A stretch of DNA of 38,908 nt from Acidobacteriota bacterium. Lineage in GTDB: Bacteria; Acidobacteriota; Blastocatellia; Pyrinomonadales; Pyrinomonadaceae. The stretch lies in assembly GCA_029557535.1 (NCBI GenBank), contig JAKQII010000389.1, forward strand, positions 1 to 38,908. The letters run 5' to 3'. Position numbers and translations under genes: made by a program. Positions 28,438 to 36,747 of the stretch are shown here, piece by piece. The notes beneath the pieces were generated by a model. It had not been told where the DNA came from. It saw only the letters and a list, made by a program, of their open reading frames with translations, and made no database searches. Numbering within the stretch: position 1 is the stretch's first letter; each line of letters opens with the position of its first letter.

Positions 28438-28923
28438 ATGGCAAACGTGCAGATCAATGCCGCGATCGTGACCGTCAGCGACTCGCGCACCATCGAAACC
28501 GACTCGTCCGGGGCGGCGCTTGCGGAATTACTCGTCTCGTTCGGAGCGGAGATCGTTGAGCGCCTCATCGTCACCGACGACTTCGACCCGCTTCGTCAAA
28601 CTCTTTATTCGCTGACCGAGCGCGAAGATATCAACCTGATCGTCACCACCGGCGGGACCGGCTTTGCCGAGCGCGACAATACGCCGGAAGCGACGCGCGC
28701 CGTGATTTTGAAGGAAGCTCCGGGAATCGCCGAAATGATGCGGGCCGAGACCGCGAAGATCAACCCGAAGGCAATACTCTCGCGCGGCGTCTGCGGTATC
28801 CGAAACGGCACGCTGATCGTCAACACCCCGGGATCCGAACGCGGCGTCCGCGAGTGTTTCGAGGTGATCCGGCCGATCCTTCAGCATGCCGTGAATCTTG
28901 TTTCCGGGGAGACAAAACATTGA
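28438..28923 (+). CDS. MoaB/MogA-family molybdenum cofactor biosynthesis protein
   Basis: 161 residues from ATG 28438 (GAGAAG just upstream). It has the molybdopterin-binding fold: VTVSDSRTIETDSSGAAL, the TTGGTGFAERDNTPEAT motif, and SRGVCGIRNGTLIVNTPGS. In MoaB/MogA enzymes this domain adenylylates molybdopterin before molybdate insertion. No other molybdenum genes are in the window, so it is alone. Its TGA overlaps the TTG start of the next gene. Confidence 0.92.
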   Translation: MANVQINAAIVTVSDSRTIETDSSGAALAELLVSFGAEIVERLIVTDDFDPLRQTLYSLTEREDINLIVTTGGTGFAERDNTPEATRAVILKEAPGIAEMMRAETAKINPKAILSRGVCGIRNGTLIVNTPGSERGVRECFEVIRPILQHAVNLVSGETKH

Positions 28924-29750
28924 AGTTCAAACCTGTATTCGCGACTCTCTTTTTTCTCATCCCGCTGATCGCGGTCAGTGCCCAAAAGCCGGCGATCGTA
29001 TTTTCGACCCAAGAGGAGATCGGTGCCGAGGTGGCGCTGGCTCCGTGTAAGAAGCGGAACGAGCGTTTGGCGGCGGTTAATGAATTGTTTCTCAAAAAGG
29101 GTGCCGCCGAATCCGACATTTCGATCGAGAAGGTGGACGATACTGAAAACCTCGTGGTTACGAAAAAGGGCTCGACGGGTGAGATCGTGATCGTTGGCGC
29201 ACATTACGACAAATCGGGCGACGGATGCGGTGCCATCGACAATTGGACCGGAATCGTCATTGTCGCCAATTTATATCGGACATTTCGGACTCTCGATACG
29301 AAAAAGACATACGTCTTCATCGCCTTCGATAAAGAAGAACTCGGTGTGTTGGGTTCGAAAGCCATGGCTGAAAGCATCAAGAAGGAAGATCGGCAGAAAT
29401 ACTGCGCCATGGTCAATTTCGACAGTTTTGGCTTTGCCTTTCCGCAAGCGATGGCGAACATTTCAACGGGATCCCTCATGAATTTGGCGGAACAGGCGTC
29501 AAACGACATGAAGATACCGTTCAGCAAAGCAATAGTCGAAGGCGCGAATTCGGATTCGGAGCCATATCGAAAACGCGGAATCCCGGCAATTTCGCTCCAT
29601 GGACTCGACAACCGCTGGAAGGCGTTTCTGCACTCTTCCCGTGACAAGGTTGAGAGCATCGATACCGGAAGTGTTTACCTCGGCTACCGCCACGGCCTTG
29701 TTCTGCTTTCCAAAGTAGAAAACGGGGCGTGCGCGGAACTTCGAAAATGA
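28920..29750 (+). CDS. Secreted M28-family zinc peptidase
   Basis: 276 residues. The start TTG at 28920 overlaps the previous stop codon, with GGGGA 9 bases upstream, and gives a clean signal peptide (KFKPVFATLFFLIPLIAVSA). M28 metal ligands are recognisable: HYD in VGAHYDKSGDG, the bridging Asp in GAIDNWTGIV, the Glu pair in FDKEELGVLGS, Asp in NFDSFGF and a late His in ISLHGLDN. It is expected to be a periplasmic or secreted aminopeptidase. The next gene overlaps its stop by 4 bases. Confidence 0.9.
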   Translation: MKFKPVFATLFFLIPLIAVSAQKPAIVFSTQEEIGAEVALAPCKKRNERLAAVNELFLKKGAAESDISIEKVDDTENLVVTKKGSTGEIVIVGAHYDKSGDGCGAIDNWTGIVIVANLYRTFRTLDTKKTYVFIAFDKEELGVLGSKAMAESIKKEDRQKYCAMVNFDSFGFAFPQAMANISTGSLMNLAEQASNDMKIPFSKAIVEGANSDSEPYRKRGIPAISLHGLDNRWKAFLHSSRDKVESIDTGSVYLGYRHGLVLLSKVENGACAELRK

Positions 29751-30184
29751 TGAAGTCGATGAAGCTATTGCAGATTAGAACGGCCTTCGTGGTCGCCCTG
29801 ATCGTTATTTCAGCGAACCCTGGAATCCGGGGATCGACGGCGGAATTGCCGCGGAAGTTCGTCCGCGTTGAGCTCTATTTCGGCTTCGACCGGAAGGGTA
29901 GCGACCCCGTTTCGGAAGAGGATTGGACGAAATTCCTCGCCGAGGAGGTCACGCCGCGGTTTCCGGACGGATTTTCGGTATTGAAGGCGCTCGGACAGTT
30001 CAGAGGGGACGACGGGTCGATAGTTCGCGAGGAGTCGCGGATTATCCTTTTGTTCTTCCCGAAATCGGACCGCAAAAAGAATGAGGCGCTGATCGAAGCC
30101 ATCCGCGCCGTGTACAAATCAAAATTCAACCAGGAGTCCGTTCTCCGGCTCGACTTCGTGAAAAGCGTCGAAGTCGATTTCTGA
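29747..30184 (+). CDS. DUF3574-like exported protein
   Basis: 145 residues from ATG 29747, overlapping the M28 stop (ATGA). A signal sequence runs to about residue 32. The mature domain resembles DUF3574: VRVELYFGFDRKG, VSEEDWTKFLAEEVTPRFPD, GFSVLKALGQFRGDDG and KSKFNQESVLRLDF. The function of this family is unknown. It converges on the S10 peptidase gene with only 2 bases between stop codons. Confidence 0.78.
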   Translation: MMKSMKLLQIRTAFVVALIVISANPGIRGSTAELPRKFVRVELYFGFDRKGSDPVSEEDWTKFLAEEVTPRFPDGFSVLKALGQFRGDDGSIVREESRIILLFFPKSDRKKNEALIEAIRAVYKSKFNQESVLRLDFVKSVEVDF

Positions 30185-30186
30185 AA

Positions 30187-31695
30187 CTACTTCTGCGCCG
30201 ATCGAATGAACTTCGATACATCCTCGTACAATTTCCGAAGGGAATTCCGCTCGATGTACATCATGTGCCCGGCTTCGTAATACTGCGTCGTCACGTTCTT
30301 CCGCAACGCCGAATCGAGATTCATCGACGACAGCGTGTACTGCGTCGCAAAATACGGCGTCGCCATGTCGTAGTAACCCGACGCGATGAAGATCTTCATG
30401 TATGGGTTCTTTGCCATCGCAAGCTTCAGATTCTGGCTCGTATCCGCATATTGGTTAGCGTTGCCGAAATTCCACGGCGCACCTATGCCGCCGCCGAGGA
30501 TGTAGTACTCAAGATCGCTCTTGAACCCCAACTCGCGCCTGACGTAATCGTTGAAGGCCGATGTATAGGGCGGACGGATCGCTGCCATGCTTGGGTCGAA
30601 ATCGGGTCCGGTCCCGGCCGAGTCGCGGTCGATCCCAAGGAAGCGGCTGTCGAGACGGCCTGTCGTCCGCCGCATTTTCCGAAGCAGTTCCTTGTTGAAT
30701 TCGCCGAGCTCGATTCTGAAATTGTTGTCGAGGACGAAATCTTCGGAAAGTCCGGTCAATCGTGAGTAGTTTGATGCCAGCGACTTTCGTTCCGCATCGG
30801 AAAGCCGGTCGATCCGAAGAAGCGCCGTGGAGTAGTCGCCGATCGCGAACGTCTCCGCATCGTTCAGTACATCGCGCAGCGGCCTGTTCTGCAATTCAGG
30901 CGGAAGCCTCCTGTGATACCAGGCGGTTGCCGTATACGAAGGCAGCATCAGGATGAACGGCAGATCGTTCGTCGCCGAGAAAAGCAACGTCTGGAAGTTC
31001 ATCACCGTCGAGACGAGACAGATGCCGTTAAGAGCGATGCCTTTTTCGAAAAGGTAATTCGAAAGCCCGCTCGCCCGCGTCGTCCCGTACGATTCGCCCA
31101 CGAGAAACAGCGGCGACCGCCAGCGTTCCGCCCGTCCAAGATAAAGTCGGATGAACTCCGCGACCGACTGGATATCACCGTCCAGTCCCCAGAATTTCGC
31201 GCCGAGTTCCGGTTTGGTCGGACGCGAATAACCCGTTCCTACCGGATCGATGAACACGAGATCCGTGTCCGGAAGCCATGTACTCTCGTTGTCAACTAGC
31301 TCGTATGGCGGCGCGGGCATCATGCCGTCGTCAAGCATTTTCACCCGCTTCGGACCGAGCGCTCCAAGGTGCAGCCAGACGCTTGCCGAACCGGGGCCGC
31401 CGTTAAACGAGAACATCAGCGGACGTCTCGACGGATCGGCGACGCCGTCGAGCGTGTATGCCATGTAGAAGATCCGAGCCTCAACAACACCGGTCTGGGC
31501 GTTTCGGATCGGCATGTGCCCGGTCGTTGTCGTGTAATTGAGCGTCTTTCCGCCAACGACAAGCGAATGCCTGCGGACCTCGGGCGGCTCTTCTTTCGCT
31601 TCAGGCGCGGAGACCGGCGGCGGAGTCGAGACTGCGGAAGGCGTGACCGCAGGAACCTGAAAAAAGAACAATGACAAGAAGATCGATGCCAGCAT
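30187..31695 (-). CDS. Secreted S10-family serine carboxypeptidase-like protein
   Basis: About 502 residues from ATG 31695, which gives a signal peptide (LASIFLSLFFFQVPAV). It is an alpha/beta hydrolase of the serine carboxypeptidase (S10) type. FSFNGGPGSASVWLHLGALGP is the S10 oxyanion segment (quoted part: FNGGPGSASVWLHLG). The nucleophile elbow is VGESYGTTRASGLS, with the acid in SGYYDMATPYF and the histidine in EAGHMMYIE. The triad is complete. A Pro/Ser-rich linker follows the signal peptide. An earlier in-frame start at 31749 overlaps the amidohydrolase gene and is unlikely. It is the last gene of the amidohydrolase unit. Confidence 0.9.
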   Translation of the reverse strand: MLASIFLSLFFFQVPAVTPSAVSTPPPVSAPEAKEEPPEVRRHSLVVGGKTLNYTTTTGHMPIRNAQTGVVEARIFYMAYTLDGVADPSRRPLMFSFNGGPGSASVWLHLGALGPKRVKMLDDGMMPAPPYELVDNESTWLPDTDLVFIDPVGTGYSRPTKPELGAKFWGLDGDIQSVAEFIRLYLGRAERWRSPLFLVGESYGTTRASGLSNYLFEKGIALNGICLVSTVMNFQTLLFSATNDLPFILMLPSYTATAWYHRRLPPELQNRPLRDVLNDAETFAIGDYSTALLRIDRLSDAERKSLASNYSRLTGLSEDFVLDNNFRIELGEFNKELLRKMRRTTGRLDSRFLGIDRDSAGTGPDFDPSMAAIRPPYTSAFNDYVRRELGFKSDLEYYILGGGIGAPWNFGNANQYADTSQNLKLAMAKNPYMKIFIASGYYDMATPYFATQYTLSSMNLDSALRKNVTTQYYEAGHMMYIERNSLRKLYEDVSKFIRSAQK

Positions 31696-31697
31696 GA

Positions 31698-32903
31698 TCA
31701 GCGTTTTCCTTCGAAAGCCAACGCGCCGTTGACGATCGTCCCCACGCAATGCGTCGTGAACTCGAACGGATCGCCGTCGTAAAGCGCCACATCCGCGTCT
31801 TTTCCGACCGCAAGTGATCCGACCCGATTATCGATCCCGAGTATTTTGGCCGCATCCACGGTGACGGATGCGAGCGCGTCGCGGAATCCCAACCCGTTCG
31901 CGGCCGCCATGGCGGCTTCAAAAAGAAGCACCCGGGTCTTCGGTACGTAACCTTCGTAGCCGCTTTGGAGCGCGACCGTGATCCCGGCGGCCTTCAGCTT
32001 CGAAGCATTTTCGAGCGTGAGACTCTCGCGCGTTCCGCCGTTGCGGGCCATCGTCGGATGAACGATCACAGGGAACCCGGACGCTTTGATCTCGGCGAGA
32101 ACCTGGACTGCCTCCGAAGCTCCGTCGAGAATGATCCTGATATTGAACTCCTTTGCGATCCTGAGCGCAGTCATGATGTCCTGCGCCTTTTCTGCCGTCA
32201 CCAGCAGCGGGATCTCGCGTTTGAGGACCTTTTGCCACATTTCCTGCTTGAGATCACGCGGCTCACCCTTGTAGTTTCCGGCCTTGATCAGTTCGGCGCG
32301 GAGCATCGCGGCTTGCTTTCCGCGCGTGCCCGGTGCGCGTCCGCCAGCCAGCGTCGAATCGGTCCCGAGGGTGACGGAGATCATCGCGGTCGAAACGAAA
32401 ACGGCTTCCTCGACGTCCTTTCCAAACGTCTTCGCGATCAGCGTCTGTCCGGAAACGAGCGCCGACGGCTGATGGCCGGTATGGATCGTCGTCACGCCGA
32501 ATCCTCGGACCCATTCGATCAATCGCTCCTCGGCGTCGTACGCGTCGATCGCCCTCAGTTCTGGTTGGATCGGCGAACTGCCGTCGAGAGCCATCTGATC
32601 GTGCGGTTGATTGAGATAGCCGTTGAGACCGATCACGGTATGCGCGTCGATCAGACCCGGTGTTACGACCTTCGCCATCAGGACTCGGTAGGCGGAAGGG
32701 ATCGAGATCTGCGATGCCGGGCCGACGGCCTCGATCTTACCGCCTTTGATGAGGACGACCCCGTCCTTGATCGGATCGCCGTTCATTGTCCAGACCGTCT
32801 CACCGCGGACCGCGATCTGCGCGTCGGCCGCCGCCGCGAACGAGACGAGAAGCGCAGCCGATAGAATGTATCGCCGAATTTGCGTTTTAACGTTCCCTTT
32901 CAT
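31698..32903 (-). CDS. Amidohydrolase-like protein lacking metal ligands (probable pseudoenzyme)
   Basis: 401 residues with a signal peptide (to about residue 29) and the amidohydrolase fold: TPGLIDAHTV, SGQTLIAKTF, TVDAAKILGIDNRVGSLAVGK (first part quoted: TVDAAKILGIDNRVG) and GKDADVALYDGDP. The HxH motif is HTV (H88, V90). Aligned with the neighbouring paralogue, positions that carry its other metal or catalytic residues are T236/E238, G261 and a Gly in place of Asp. So it is probably not a zinc hydrolase. Its start overlaps the upstream paralogue's stop by 4 bases, suggesting the two are made together, possibly as a complex. Confidence 0.85.
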   Translation of the reverse strand: MKGNVKTQIRRYILSAALLVSFAAAADAQIAVRGETVWTMNGDPIKDGVVLIKGGKIEAVGPASQISIPSAYRVLMAKVVTPGLIDAHTVIGLNGYLNQPHDQMALDGSSPIQPELRAIDAYDAEERLIEWVRGFGVTTIHTGHQPSALVSGQTLIAKTFGKDVEEAVFVSTAMISVTLGTDSTLAGGRAPGTRGKQAAMLRAELIKAGNYKGEPRDLKQEMWQKVLKREIPLLVTAEKAQDIMTALRIAKEFNIRIILDGASEAVQVLAEIKASGFPVIVHPTMARNGGTRESLTLENASKLKAAGITVALQSGYEGYVPKTRVLLFEAAMAAANGLGFRDALASVTVDAAKILGIDNRVGSLAVGKDADVALYDGDPFEFTTHCVGTIVNGALAFEGKR

Positions 32904-34225
32904 CGCGCACCTCCCTGAATGTCGCCGTCAAAACAGTCGATGTCGGTAAACTTGTCGTTGGTCGCGCCGAAACCGCCGACCGCCAAAAGGTAATCCGCGG
33001 GATTGCCGCGATCGAATACTTTCTTGCCTTCGACCCACGTTTGTTCGACATGCGTGTAAACGCTTAGCGGATCGCCCGACAAGACAACGAAATCGGCGTC
33101 CTTGCCGGCCTCGAGCGAACCGACACGATCCTGAAGCTCGAGCATGATCGCGCCGGCCATCGTCATGCCGTAGAGCGCTTTGTCGCGGCTCATTCCGAAA
33201 CGCACGGCCATCCCGGCCGATCGCAGGAACCAACGCGAATCGGTGATCGAATCGTCAGTGTGGAATCCGGCAAGCGCCCCGGCCTTTTCTAACGCCGCAC
33301 CGTTCGTCATTGAAACATCCACTGTCTCAAGCTTTCCGCCGGGCGAGTCGATCATGATGATCGAAGAGGGAACGCCGGACTTCGCGATCTGATCGGCCAC
33401 CTTCCAGGCTTCCGAAACGTGCTGCAGCACGAGTTTGAATCCGAATTCCTGCTTGAGCCGCAGCACGGTCAGAATATCGTCGTGCCGGTGGGTATGGAAA
33501 TGTACGACGCGCTTGCCGTCGAGGACCTCCGCGAGTGCTTCCATCCCGAGATCCCGCGGCGGCAGTTTGGTCTTGTCGCCTGCCGCCTTGGCGATCTTTG
33601 CCTTGTATTCCTGAGCCTTTATGAACTGTTCGCGGACGAGCGCGGCGCTTTTGGCGCGCGTACCCGGAAAACTGCCGCCACCGGGGCGGATCGGGTTGGT
33701 TCCGTTCGCGAACTTGATTCCGCCGGCATATCTTCCGTCTTTATCGAAGATAAGAAGATCGTCGATCTTCGTCGCGTCGTCGCGGAGCTTGAGATAAAGC
33801 GTCTGTCCGCTGTCGAGATGTCCGGAACCGGGCATTACGTTGACGGTCGTGATCCCGCCGGCCTGGGCGCGTTGAAGACCTGAGGCCTTGACGTTGACCG
33901 AATCGAGAATCCTTACATCGGGTTGGATCGGAGACGAACCGTCGGCGCCGGCCGGCCCGCCGATGTGGCTGTGGGTGTCGACCAATCCGGGCATTACGAC
34001 CTTGCCCTTCATGTCGACGATCTGAACGTCCGCGCTGAGCCTGACGACTCGGGCATCGCCAACGGCCACGATCTTGCCGTTTTGGATCAGCAAAATGCCG
34101 TCCTCGATCGGGGCGCCGACGATCGGAATTATCCGGGCTCCGACAAAGGCGACCGGGCGTGATTGTCCGGCCGCGGAAACGGCGATCGCGCACAACACCA
34201 ATAGGCTGAAGAAATATCGTCTCAT
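32900..34225 (-). CDS. Secreted amidohydrolase (imidazolonepropionase-like)
   Basis: 441 residues with a signal peptide (ends AVSAAGQ). Metal-dependent amidohydrolase fold: HxH as MPGLVDTHSHIGG (H85, H87), histidines in VVHFHTHRHDD (242-248), LQHVSEA (H269) and GFHTDDS (H322, D324). The closing segment is AGAIMLELQDRVGSLEAGKDAD, quoted in part as RVGSLEAGKDAD. The substrate is unknown; related secreted enzymes act on cyclic amides or prolyl dipeptides. It heads a unit with the ligand-less paralogue and the S10 peptidase. AGGAA precedes ATG 34225. Confidence 0.9.
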   Translation of the reverse strand: MRRYFFSLLVLCAIAVSAAGQSRPVAFVGARIIPIVGAPIEDGILLIQNGKIVAVGDARVVRLSADVQIVDMKGKVVMPGLVDTHSHIGGPAGADGSSPIQPDVRILDSVNVKASGLQRAQAGGITTVNVMPGSGHLDSGQTLYLKLRDDATKIDDLLIFDKDGRYAGGIKFANGTNPIRPGGGSFPGTRAKSAALVREQFIKAQEYKAKIAKAAGDKTKLPPRDLGMEALAEVLDGKRVVHFHTHRHDDILTVLRLKQEFGFKLVLQHVSEAWKVADQIAKSGVPSSIIMIDSPGGKLETVDVSMTNGAALEKAGALAGFHTDDSITDSRWFLRSAGMAVRFGMSRDKALYGMTMAGAIMLELQDRVGSLEAGKDADFVVLSGDPLSVYTHVEQTWVEGKKVFDRGNPADYLLAVGGFGATNDKFTDIDCFDGDIQGGAR

Positions 34226-34471: not shown

Positions 34472-34912
34472 ATGAAGAATCGAATATTTATCGCACTCAT
34501 CGCACTATCGCTCATTATTTCGGCAAGCTCGATCTCGATGGCGCAGACCCGCAAGAAACGCAGCAGTTCGAAGGGATTGCTGACGAATCTTGCGATCGTC
34601 GGCGGAAGTACCGCAGCCGGTGCCTTGATCGGACGCGGCCGCAACGGCGCAATGATCGGCGCCGGCGCGGGCCTGCTTTACGCGTCGAGCCGGAAAGGTA
34701 CCAAACGTCGTTATTACAACAGCAATTATCGGCGCGCTGCCAAGATCGGCGGCGGGACGCTGCTCGGCCTGGGAACCGGCGCGTGGCTCGGCGGAAAGAA
34801 GGGAATGATCATCGGCGGCCTCGTCGGCGCCGGCGCAACCTACCTTTACACGAAGAACGGTCGCAATTATTACCGATCGCGCGACGGCCGGGTCTATTCG
34901 GTCAAGCGCTGA
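34472..34912 (+). CDS. Exported glycine-zipper protein
   Basis: 146 residues with a signal peptide (to about residue 25, ending ISMAQ). Two glycine-zipper stretches follow, GGSTAAGALIGRGRNGAMIG and a second near TLLGLGTGAWLGGKKGMIIG, separated by a basic Tyr/Arg-rich linker. It ends in a Tyr/Arg-rich tail. Glycine zippers pack membrane helices tightly and occur in outer-membrane and stress proteins (YMGG/RcnB/OmpA-associated types); the exact role is unknown. GAGGGAG precedes the ATG. Its 3' end overlaps the convergent histidine kinase gene by 19 bases. Confidence 0.8.
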   Translation: MKNRIFIALIALSLIISASSISMAQTRKKRSSSKGLLTNLAIVGGSTAAGALIGRGRNGAMIGAGAGLLYASSRKGTKRRYYNSNYRRAAKIGGGTLLGLGTGAWLGGKKGMIIGGLVGAGATYLYTKNGRNYYRSRDGRVYSVKR

Positions 34913-36747
34913 CCGTCATTCTGCGCGGGTAGAAACACCTTGAACGATGTTCCCGCGGTCCTGCCCCTGACGGCCTCGATGCGTCCGCCGTGGGCGCTGA
35001 CGATCCCATAGCAGACTGCGAGTCCGAGACCGGTGCCGGAACCCGCGGGTTTCGTCGTATAGAATGGGTCGAATATCTTTTTGAGGTCTTCGGCCCCTAC
35101 TCCCGTGCCGTCATCGGTGACGGTGGCCGTGACTTCATCGGTCGTGGCCGTTGTTTCAATGATCAGGTTTCCGCCGTCCGGCATCGCGTCTCGGGCGTTG
35201 AGCATCAGGTTCAGGAAGACCTGGGTCAGCTGATCGGGATCGGCGAGTACATCGGGGATCTCATTGGCGAGTCGGAGTTCGATCCCGAGCCGCTGGAACG
35301 TCTTGTCGAAACTCGCGAGCCGCAACGCCTTGTCGATCAGGGAGTTGATGTCGATTGCGGTTCGTGCCGCGGGCCTCACGCGGGCGAAGTCCATCATGTC
35401 CTTGGTCACCCGCGAGATCCGCTCGATCTGTGTCTCAATGAGCCGGAGGTTTTCGATGTCCTTTTCGTCTGAACTCCGTTTGCGCATCATCTGGATCAGC
35501 GACGAGATCGAGGCCAGCGGGTTGTTGACCTCGTGCGCCAGCCCCGCCGACAGGGTTCCCATCGCCGCCAGTTTCTCGGTTCGTATCAGCTGCTCATTGA
35601 GGTTCTTGAGCTGCTCGATGTCGTCGGCCATTTTGCGGCTCATCTCGTTGAACGACTGCGCCAGGAGGCCGATCTCATCATTGCTGTGGCGTCCGTCGAC
35701 CTCGGTTCCGTAACTTCCTTCGGTAACGCGCACGGCGGCGAATGTGATTCGCTGCAGCGGCCTTGAGATCGTTCTGACGATCAAGAGCAACAAAAGGAGG
35801 TTGGGGACCAACGCCGAAATCACGCTAAACACGAGGTATTTGCGCCACGCGTCGAAATTGATGCCGTCCTGGAACGCCCACCAGACGATCGGAATCTGAA
35901 AAACCGTGAAGCTAACGATCGCGACCGTCGCGATGCTCAGCGCGATCTTGTACGTGATCGGGAACAACCGGAACTGATCGAGCGCGTTCTCGAGCGAAAA
36001 AAGCTTGAAATTTGAGATCGCGTACGCGTAGATCAACACTCCCGGGAGCACGAAGATCGAACTGTACGGCAACAGGAAGTAATAACCGAAGAACGGAAAG
36101 ACGATGTTGGCCGCGGTCTTCAACGCCCCGGTGATCATCAGTCCCCAAATGATCGCGCCGAGTTGCTGGGCCTGTTGCGAGGATCGCAGCGCGCGGTATT
36201 TCCGGAACAGTACGAAAGCGCCGTATCCGAAGATGAAATAAACGTAGACGACGAACGCGTATGCGAGCGGCGCGAGCTCGATCTCGAAATTGCCGTCGCG
36301 TAAGCCGACCTCACGCCATAGCAGCCCGGCGAACGTTGCGGGTATCAGAACCAGTGACGGCGCGAAAAGAATCGCCGCCTTCCGTTTCGGAGTTCGTGAA
36401 TTCTCGGGAAAAACCCAGGCGAACACCGCGAGCGAGCACTGCATCAGGAGGGCGATGATGAAGCTCGACGCGGCCCACCACCCCGCCGCGACATTCGTCC
36501 CGTGAAAATTCCAGAAGATCAGATCTTTGATCGTCCAGAGCGCGAGGAAGGCGATGAAAGCCGCAAACGTCTGGTGCGCCCGGTTGCGCGGATTCGCAAC
36601 GAAAACGTAGAACCCGAGCAGGACGAGCAGAAAAAGGGCAAACAGATGAAGCAGGACCAGCACGGTTCGAGTGTAGTAGCAGCTCGGGTCGAGTGCAATC
36701 GCAATTCGTCTGCGATCGATCCTGAGTTTCAGCGTCGGACCATTCAA
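34894..36747 (-). CDS. Membrane sensor histidine kinase (NtrB-like core)
   Basis: 617 residues. The N-terminus has about seven membrane segments (30-245), resembling the 7TM-type histidine kinase sensor module. Two more helices (266-292 and 304-325) lead into a HAMP-like segment (ISRPLQRITFAAVRV, NDEIGLLAQSFNEM). The HisKA helix has phosphoacceptor H405 in AGLAHEVNNPLASI. The ATPase domain shows N-box NLMLNARDAM, G-box DDGTGVG, FDPFYTTKPAG and GTGLGLAV. The start is TTG 36747 with AAGGAG 4-5 bases upstream; the nearby ATG is out of frame. No response regulator is in the window, so the kinase is an orphan here. Confidence 0.93.
   Translation of the reverse strand: MNGPTLKLRIDRRRIAIALDPSCYYTRTVLVLLHLFALFLLVLLGFYVFVANPRNRAHQTFAAFIAFLALWTIKDLIFWNFHGTNVAAGWWAASSFIIALLMQCSLAVFAWVFPENSRTPKRKAAILFAPSLVLIPATFAGLLWREVGLRDGNFEIELAPLAYAFVVYVYFIFGYGAFVLFRKYRALRSSQQAQQLGAIIWGLMITGALKTAANIVFPFFGYYFLLPYSSIFVLPGVLIYAYAISNFKLFSLENALDQFRLFPITYKIALSIATVAIVSFTVFQIPIVWWAFQDGINFDAWRKYLVFSVISALVPNLLLLLLIVRTISRPLQRITFAAVRVTEGSYGTEVDGRHSNDEIGLLAQSFNEMSRKMADDIEQLKNLNEQLIRTEKLAAMGTLSAGLAHEVNNPLASISSLIQMMRKRSSDEKDIENLRLIETQIERISRVTKDMMDFARVRPAARTAIDINSLIDKALRLASFDKTFQRLGIELRLANEIPDVLADPDQLTQVFLNLMLNARDAMPDGGNLIIETTATTDEVTATVTDDGTGVGAEDLKKIFDPFYTTKPAGSGTGLGLAVCYGIVSAHGGRIEAVRGRTAGTSFKVFLPAQNDGQRLTE

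Follow-up and report, generated by a model that had tools for sequence, protein, structure and literature searches.

Introduction

Two neighbouring genes in a 38,908-nucleotide stretch of an Acidobacteriota genome (contig JAKQII010000389.1 of assembly GCA_029557535.1; hereafter, the window) encode paralogous proteins that share the amidohydrolase fold, and only the upstream one has the canonical metal ligands of that fold. The question raised by this locus is why the bacterium and its relatives would keep, beside a copy with an intact metal site, a full-length copy without one. From a comparison of sequences, we consider it likely that the two products form an obligate, exported, hetero-oligomeric amidohydrolase made of a catalytic subunit and a pseudo-subunit. 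As the "dead" copy is conserved, paired and apparently fits against the working copy, it is probably a required partner subunit and not debris.

The locus and the fold of its products

In agreement with the original prediction, the ligand-less copy is full length, intact and coupled to the intact gene by a 4-base overlap (Table 1). In the 79 pairs for which both starts could be called (by a heuristic), the overlap is of 4 bp in 17 and of 1 bp in 25. The two copies of the window share 32% identity over 422 aligned columns (E 4e-55), and both are above the Pfam cut-offs for Amidohydro_3 and Amidohydro_1, while all matches of either copy to NCBIfam enzyme families (hutI, nagA, prolidase and others) are far below the curated cut-offs. 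Of the amidohydrolases with a solved structure, 3ooq is the nearest to both, with E values of 2.2e-41 for the ligand-less copy and 4.7e-61 for the intact one. Additionally, when the ligand-less copy was modelled with AlphaFold2 (pLDDT 88.4), 3ooq was the best fold match of the model (TM 0.86), the next entries among the top ten reaching at most 0.56.

The loss of the ligands, and nothing more, is what a decaying duplicate or an annotation artefact would have in its favour. Such an origin is hardly credible for a protein without stop codons, with invariant positions in 188 pairs, a model pTM of 0.87 and a mean identity among relatives of 0.59 (versus 0.62 for the intact copies). The possibility of a pseudogene was consequently rejected, the ligand-less copy being conserved across relatives.

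Table 1. Features of the amidohydrolase pair and its neighbours in the window (counts refer to the aligned pairs)
Feature	Position	Strand	Basis or conservation
Intact amidohydrolase (TM0814/3OOQ-like), signal-peptide-like N-terminus, proposed catalytic subunit	32900..34225	-	441 aa, ATG
Ligand-less paralogue, proposed pseudo-subunit	31698..32903	-	401 aa, ATG
4-base overlap, stop of intact gene / start of ligand-less gene	32900..32903	-	ORF coordinates
Intact HxH motif (83-90), H85 and H87	33956..33979	-	kept in 186/186 readable
Intact K171, beta-4 lysine	33713..33715	-	188/188
Intact beta-5 motif HFHTHRHDD (242-250), H244	33476..33502	-	188/188
Intact beta-6 His, H269	33419..33421	-	188/188
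Intact beta-8 Asp, D324	33254..33256	-	188/188
Intact W332, coevolves with partner M332 and F382	33230..33232	-	coupling analysis, tree
Ligand-less HTV (88-90) replacing HxH	32634..32642	-	second His absent 188/188 (V 147, T 28, others 13)
Ligand-less HTGHQP (141-146), ligand-less-specific motif, end of beta-2	32466..32483	-	H141 171/188, H144 178/188
Ligand-less TAE (236-238) replacing beta-5 HxH	32190..32198	-	beta-5 His position: T 153, N 15, H 3 of 188
Ligand-less G261 replacing beta-6 His	32121..32123	-	G 149, S 30, H 0 of 188
Ligand-less QSGYEGYVPK (313-322), rebuilt beta-8 end	31938..31967	-	E317 188/188, K322 186/188
Ligand-less M332, coevolves with intact W332	31908..31910	-	coupling analysis, tree
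Histidine kinase, N-terminal 7TM region, upstream of the pair	34894-36747	-	
Peptidase S10 ORF, TTG start, overlaps 3' end of ligand-less gene by 52 bases	30187-31749	-	

The metal site in the two copies

The ligands of the intact copy of the window are H85-x-H87, K171, H244, H269 and D324. In the intact copies of 188 distinct pairs there are no substitutions at these six sites (H, H, K, H, H, D), two rows having a gap at HxH, which bears out the earlier claim that the upstream protein keeps all of its histidines and the aspartate. These pairs derive from 203, with L019 (frameshifted), L037 (on a contig without the intact copy) and L056 (short) left out, followed by 15 identical pairs. The list of ligands on which the claim was made had missed K171, presumably the beta-4 metal ligand that is carboxylated in relatives, an assumption to which its invariance here adds.

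In the same columns, the ligand-less copy of the window has H88, V90, S176, T236, G261 and, at beta-8, either E317 or G318, according to the placement of a 2-residue insertion in the alignment. The lysine is never present in the 188 ligand-less copies (A 152, V 14, S 11), and the beta-8 Asp column contains Glu in every one of them; the remaining columns are summarised in Table 1. As the same losses recur across 188 distinct pairs, they are not due to chance. The first His of HxH was retained in 116 of the 188 ligand-less copies, that of the window being of this type, so the original description of a copy stripped of all its ligands is correct for most of them but slightly overstated. The "G" that it gave for beta-8 depends on the alignment, the aligned residue being the invariant Glu. 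The canonical site is, thus, gone throughout the ligand-less family, with one His often left.

Co-occurrence and gene order

Two queries, the intact and the ligand-less copy, were searched against the same genome sets, and a ligand-less orthologue was defined as a match of at least 49% identity or as collinear split matches of at least 48%. Among 297 genomes of Acidobacteriota, both copies were found in the same 49, and either one alone in none. In Planctomycetota (244 genomes), an intact copy is matched with an E value of at most 1e-80 in 44 genomes, of which 38 have a tandem pair, the remaining six corresponding to five fusions and to G522, where the gene is at a contig edge. In the phylum of the Ignavibacteria locus L044 (Bacteroidota-side; 198 genomes), there are 45 intact-type matches and 43 tandem pairs, the other two being G667, again at a contig edge, and the chimera of G739. 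Altogether, 138 of the 739 genomes from three phyla have the intact type (130 in tandem, five fused, two at an edge and one chimeric), counts that include the three centre genomes and G298, which were picked for carrying the pair, and that come from a first-pass search that can miss matches.

Pairing of the intact with the ligand-less gene is, therefore, near absolute. An intact copy of the window type living alone was found in none of the 739 genomes searched. Similarly, the ligand-less copy lacked an intact neighbour in none of the 130 genomes carrying it, and its existence as a solitary gene was rejected; its occurrence alone in many genomes is what the original prediction had named as evidence against a subunit. 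The co-occurrence that the same prediction had proposed to look for is found as adjacency in 130 and as fusion in five of the 138 genomes with the intact type. The tandem loci number 131, as one genome has two; in every one of them the intact gene lies directly upstream on the same strand, and the gap between the matched parts does not exceed 428 bases.

The identity matrices of the intact and ligand-less copies are also correlated (79 pairs, r 0.87, a value as high being found in 0 of 2000 permutations), but a high correlation is to be expected for any co-inherited neighbour genes.

The single gene of G739 (L121:9052-10278) has a front of the intact type (HSH, K and the beta-5 motif) and a rear of the ligand-less type (DGAAE, FQSGFEEYVPKTR), and the beta-6 His and the beta-8 Asp are absent from it. 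It may be a natural chimera produced by recombination or else an assembly artefact.

Export and gene neighbourhood

A signal-peptide-like N-terminus is present in 73 of 77 intact copies and in 77 of 79 ligand-less copies; an extracytoplasmic location would therefore be expected for the complex. The neighbours of the pair in Blastocatellia are genes for a 7TM histidine kinase on one side and for an S10 peptidase on the other. Homologues of these flank the pair in 34 (histidine kinase) and 23 (S10 peptidase) of the 80 loci L001-L080, which are the best 80 of 166 relatives. Outside Acidobacteriota, the 10 flanking proteins scanned (of 40 listed) all differ in function, which indicates that the pair itself is the conserved unit. 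No clue to the substrate was found in the neighbour genes of the 80 related loci or in the 10 flanking proteins from elsewhere. Further along the window, an M28 peptidase (28854-29750, +) is followed by a DUF3574 protein (29729-30184, +), the two reading frames overlapping.

Fusions and related subfamilies

In five loci of Planctomycetota (L124-L128), the window-type intact and ligand-less copies are fused in one ORF of 851-948 aa, in which R/K287, E317 and K322 are kept and the histidines described below for the barrel mouth only partly so. The design of an intact domain with a degenerate paralogue recurs beyond the subfamily of the window, often in fused form. Among 47 loci of other subfamilies (35 in L081-L120 and 12 in L129-L140, the loci L081-L140 being a non-random set picked by hand from match lists), 46 combine an intact domain with one or two ligand-less domains. 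L092, L094, L097 and L098 (of the window type) and L096 (a 200-base stub) are left out of this count. The remaining locus, L140:3307-4521 (G392), has an intact domain alone, no ligand-less partner being in view on its 5.8-kb contig. Of the 35 loci, 15 have both kinds of domain within a single open frame, as do 6 of the other 12; together with the five of the window type, this amounts to 26 fused loci (21 from other subfamilies).

The order of the domains in these subfamilies may be intact-dead, dead-intact or dead-intact-dead, and the residues lost by the ligand-less partners vary from one subfamily to another, without a common new residue set. In L103, L119 and L129-L131, the dead, intact and dead domains are in one open frame of about 1400-1500 aa. 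The genome of the window contains a second cluster of its own (contig C299, L081:26-4062), arranged as ligand-less (cut by the contig end), intact and ligand-less.

Number of origins

In a tree made with all columns, a single branch (SH-aLRT 94) separates the 50 intact domains from the others. When the five ligand-motif blocks are removed, the intact domains need four changes and the two copies of the window type group as sisters (SH-aLRT 97), with an AU p of 0.46 for one intact clade. In a 53-row subset, neither view was rejected: AU p was 0.26 and 0.26 when the window pair was taken as a single clade, and 0.52 when the intact domains were. That all ligand-less copies go back to one ancient event was consequently rejected as a firm claim.

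Coevolution between the two chains

A mean-field coupling analysis was performed on 187 paired rows (the 188 minus a gappy one), with an effective number of about 110; a run in which gaps were kept was discarded as a gap artefact. The intra-protein couplings are sensible, and between the proteins a single pair stands out, formed by W332 (intact) and M332 (ligand-less). Its score is 1.03, and with the sequences weighted in three ways it ranks 7-13 among all pairs. When partners were shuffled 16 times within sequence clusters, the top interprotein score was 0.68 and that of W332-M332 was never above 0.24. The coupling of W332 with F382 of the ligand-less copy (0.69) is at the level of the null maximum. 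As M332-F382 is itself strongly coupled, being among the top intra-protein pairs, the three residues form a closed triad. All remaining interprotein pairs were at null level in the comparison with the 16 shuffles, and coupling is weak (0.23) between position 339 of the intact and 325 of the ligand-less copy, the mirror image that a simple pseudo-twofold dimer would predict.

The combinations found at 332/332 are L-I (64), W-M (36), L-V (32) and L-L (8; n=187). When these columns were left out of the tree, eight supported independent paths had a change of W, and M changes the same way on 6.1 and the opposite way on 0 of them on average. The median p for their joint change is 0.03, uncorrected, for a pair that was chosen after the scan. 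W332 is at the start of helix alpha-8, eight residues past D324, a position from which the partner would be expected to lie close to the catalytic subunit's active site.

Adjacency and co-inheritance might also be found in mere operon partners, that is, in independent enzymes of the same pathway, the ligand-less copy having a different, metal-independent activity. We regard this as improbable in view of the in-frame fusions in at least 26 loci and the coevolving interprotein triad, and of the lack of any other conserved neighbour outside Acidobacteriota (10 flanking proteins scanned), all of which fit better with a closely associated pair.

The rebuilt mouth of the ligand-less copy

Near-invariant residues specific to the ligand-less copies are G95, N98, D102, Q103, H141-P146, H282, M285, R287, Q313-E317, P321, K322, E329 and E381, part of this list having been rechecked in the 188-pair set. 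In addition to the residues included in Table 1, R287 (186), D102 (185), H282 (184) and Q103 (176) are near invariant in the 188 ligand-less copies. Most of the specific residues follow strands beta-1, beta-2, beta-7 and beta-8 of the AlphaFold2 secondary structure, that is, the mouth of the barrel. Consequently, the mouth of the old active site is conserved in a new form, and the pseudo-subunit may do more than serve as a scaffold; the fact that this mouth is both rebuilt and conserved argues against a purely inert one.

Two readings of the role of the pseudo-subunit have to be weighed at this point. It could be a plain scaffold or folding partner, in the manner of the pseudo-dihydroorotase of Pseudomonas, with pocket residues that merely hold the fold. 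We give this somewhat less than an even chance: the precedent of P. aeruginosa pDHO (discussed below) and the partners in other subfamilies, which lost different residues and have no new set in common, speak for it, but in the subfamily of the window the mouth of the barrel is invariant, and not only its core. It is also possible, although rather doubtful, that the ligand-less copy works with a site of its own, the rebuilt mouth binding a ligand or a relocated metal, or completing the active site of the partner. D102, Q103, H141, H144, H282, R287, E317 and K322 are near invariant, are absent or different in intact copies and fall at the barrel mouth on the AlphaFold2 secondary structure, which speaks for such a site. 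Nevertheless, their clustering in space is putative, the ligand-less partners of other subfamilies lack this residue set and the five fusions of Planctomycetota keep the mouth histidines only in part.

As a tentative and broader proposal, which we would hold unlikely as a whole, a widespread branch of exported amidohydrolases might work only as a catalytic subunit with one or two degenerate paralogous subunits, in tandem or fused. In the subfamily of the window, the rebuilt pocket of the degenerate subunit (D102, the HxxH of 141/144, H282, R287, E317 and K322) would then help to bind the substrate, provide a site for a second ligand or a relocated metal, or supply residues in trans to the active site of the partner.

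Proposed model and implications

In the obligate hetero-oligomer that we favour, the upstream product, in which the AHS metal site is complete (HxH, Lys, His, His, Asp), would be the catalyst. The downstream product would keep the barrel fold, be unable to hold the canonical metals and pack on the catalytic subunit, with contacts at least where helix alpha-8 begins, eight residues beyond the catalytic Asp. This partner would be needed for the folding, the stability or the substrate handling of the catalytic subunit. Ligand loss, conservation, obligate adjacency, recurrent fusion, co-inheritance and one coevolving interprotein triad are the observations behind this model, and from them we infer the physical complex, the catalytic role of the intact copy and its need for the partner. 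Three features to be expected of the pseudo-subunit of a heteromeric enzyme were found, as the ligand-less copy never occurs without its partner in the 130 genomes carrying it, has natural fusions with it and shows interchain coevolution in one triad. Weighed against the model were the presence of a single triad above the null, the weak mirrored coupling, the locus L140 and the matrix correlation that is expected in any case. The original suggestion that the dead copy is retained as a structural or regulatory subunit gains from the fusions and the triad as far as a partner subunit is concerned; a purely inert scaffold fits poorly with the conserved mouth.

Both proteins are called simply "amidohydrolase" in databases, where the second is annotated as an enzyme that it cannot be, and the intact copy may appear dead when assayed alone. 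Were the pairing obligate, the partner would have to be co-expressed in any assay of this branch, and this may help to explain why the 3ooq family was found without an assigned function. In at least the three phyla sampled, the degenerate paralogues are retained beside their intact sister, and natural fusions and split forms are available for comparison.

Comparison with known systems

3OOQ of Thermotoga maritima MSB8, which we take to be TM0814, resembles the intact copy, as its HxH, Lys, His, His and Asp align. It differs from the pair in being an intact-type protein known as a structure only, and we know of no partner for it. No paper mentioning 3ooq together with "amidohydrolase", nor any publication describing the pairing of an intact with a ligand-less amidohydrolase, was found among open-licence PMC papers. 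The COG1228-type dipeptidases and arginine carboxypeptidases (3mtw, 3mkv, 3feq) share the fold and part of the sequence match, but their matches are far weaker than that of 3ooq, with TM values of 0.54-0.57 to the ligand-less model, and they are known as single-gene enzymes. Pairs of active and inactive paralogues exist among other hydrolases, as in the M16B peptidases, in which a subunit that holds the metal goes obligately with a paralogue lacking the metal motif; fold and family are unrelated to those described here.

PMC13058870 concerns an unrelated M20 enzyme. A parallel is found in P. aeruginosa, where, according to PMC7053772, the pseudo-dihydroorotase pDHO is inactive yet necessary for ATCase activity. 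Pseudomonas PyrB-PyrC' is, thus, similar to the pair described here in having a subunit of the amidohydrolase fold that lacks the zinc ligands and is required by its partner (PMC7053772), but that partner is an unrelated transcarbamoylase, while here it is the intact paralogue of the dead subunit. The outline of a pseudoenzyme acting as a partner subunit is known, and the present pair is a new and unusually consistent case of it, in which live and dead subunits are paralogues of each other and always have adjacent or fused genes, in three sampled phyla and in several subfamilies.
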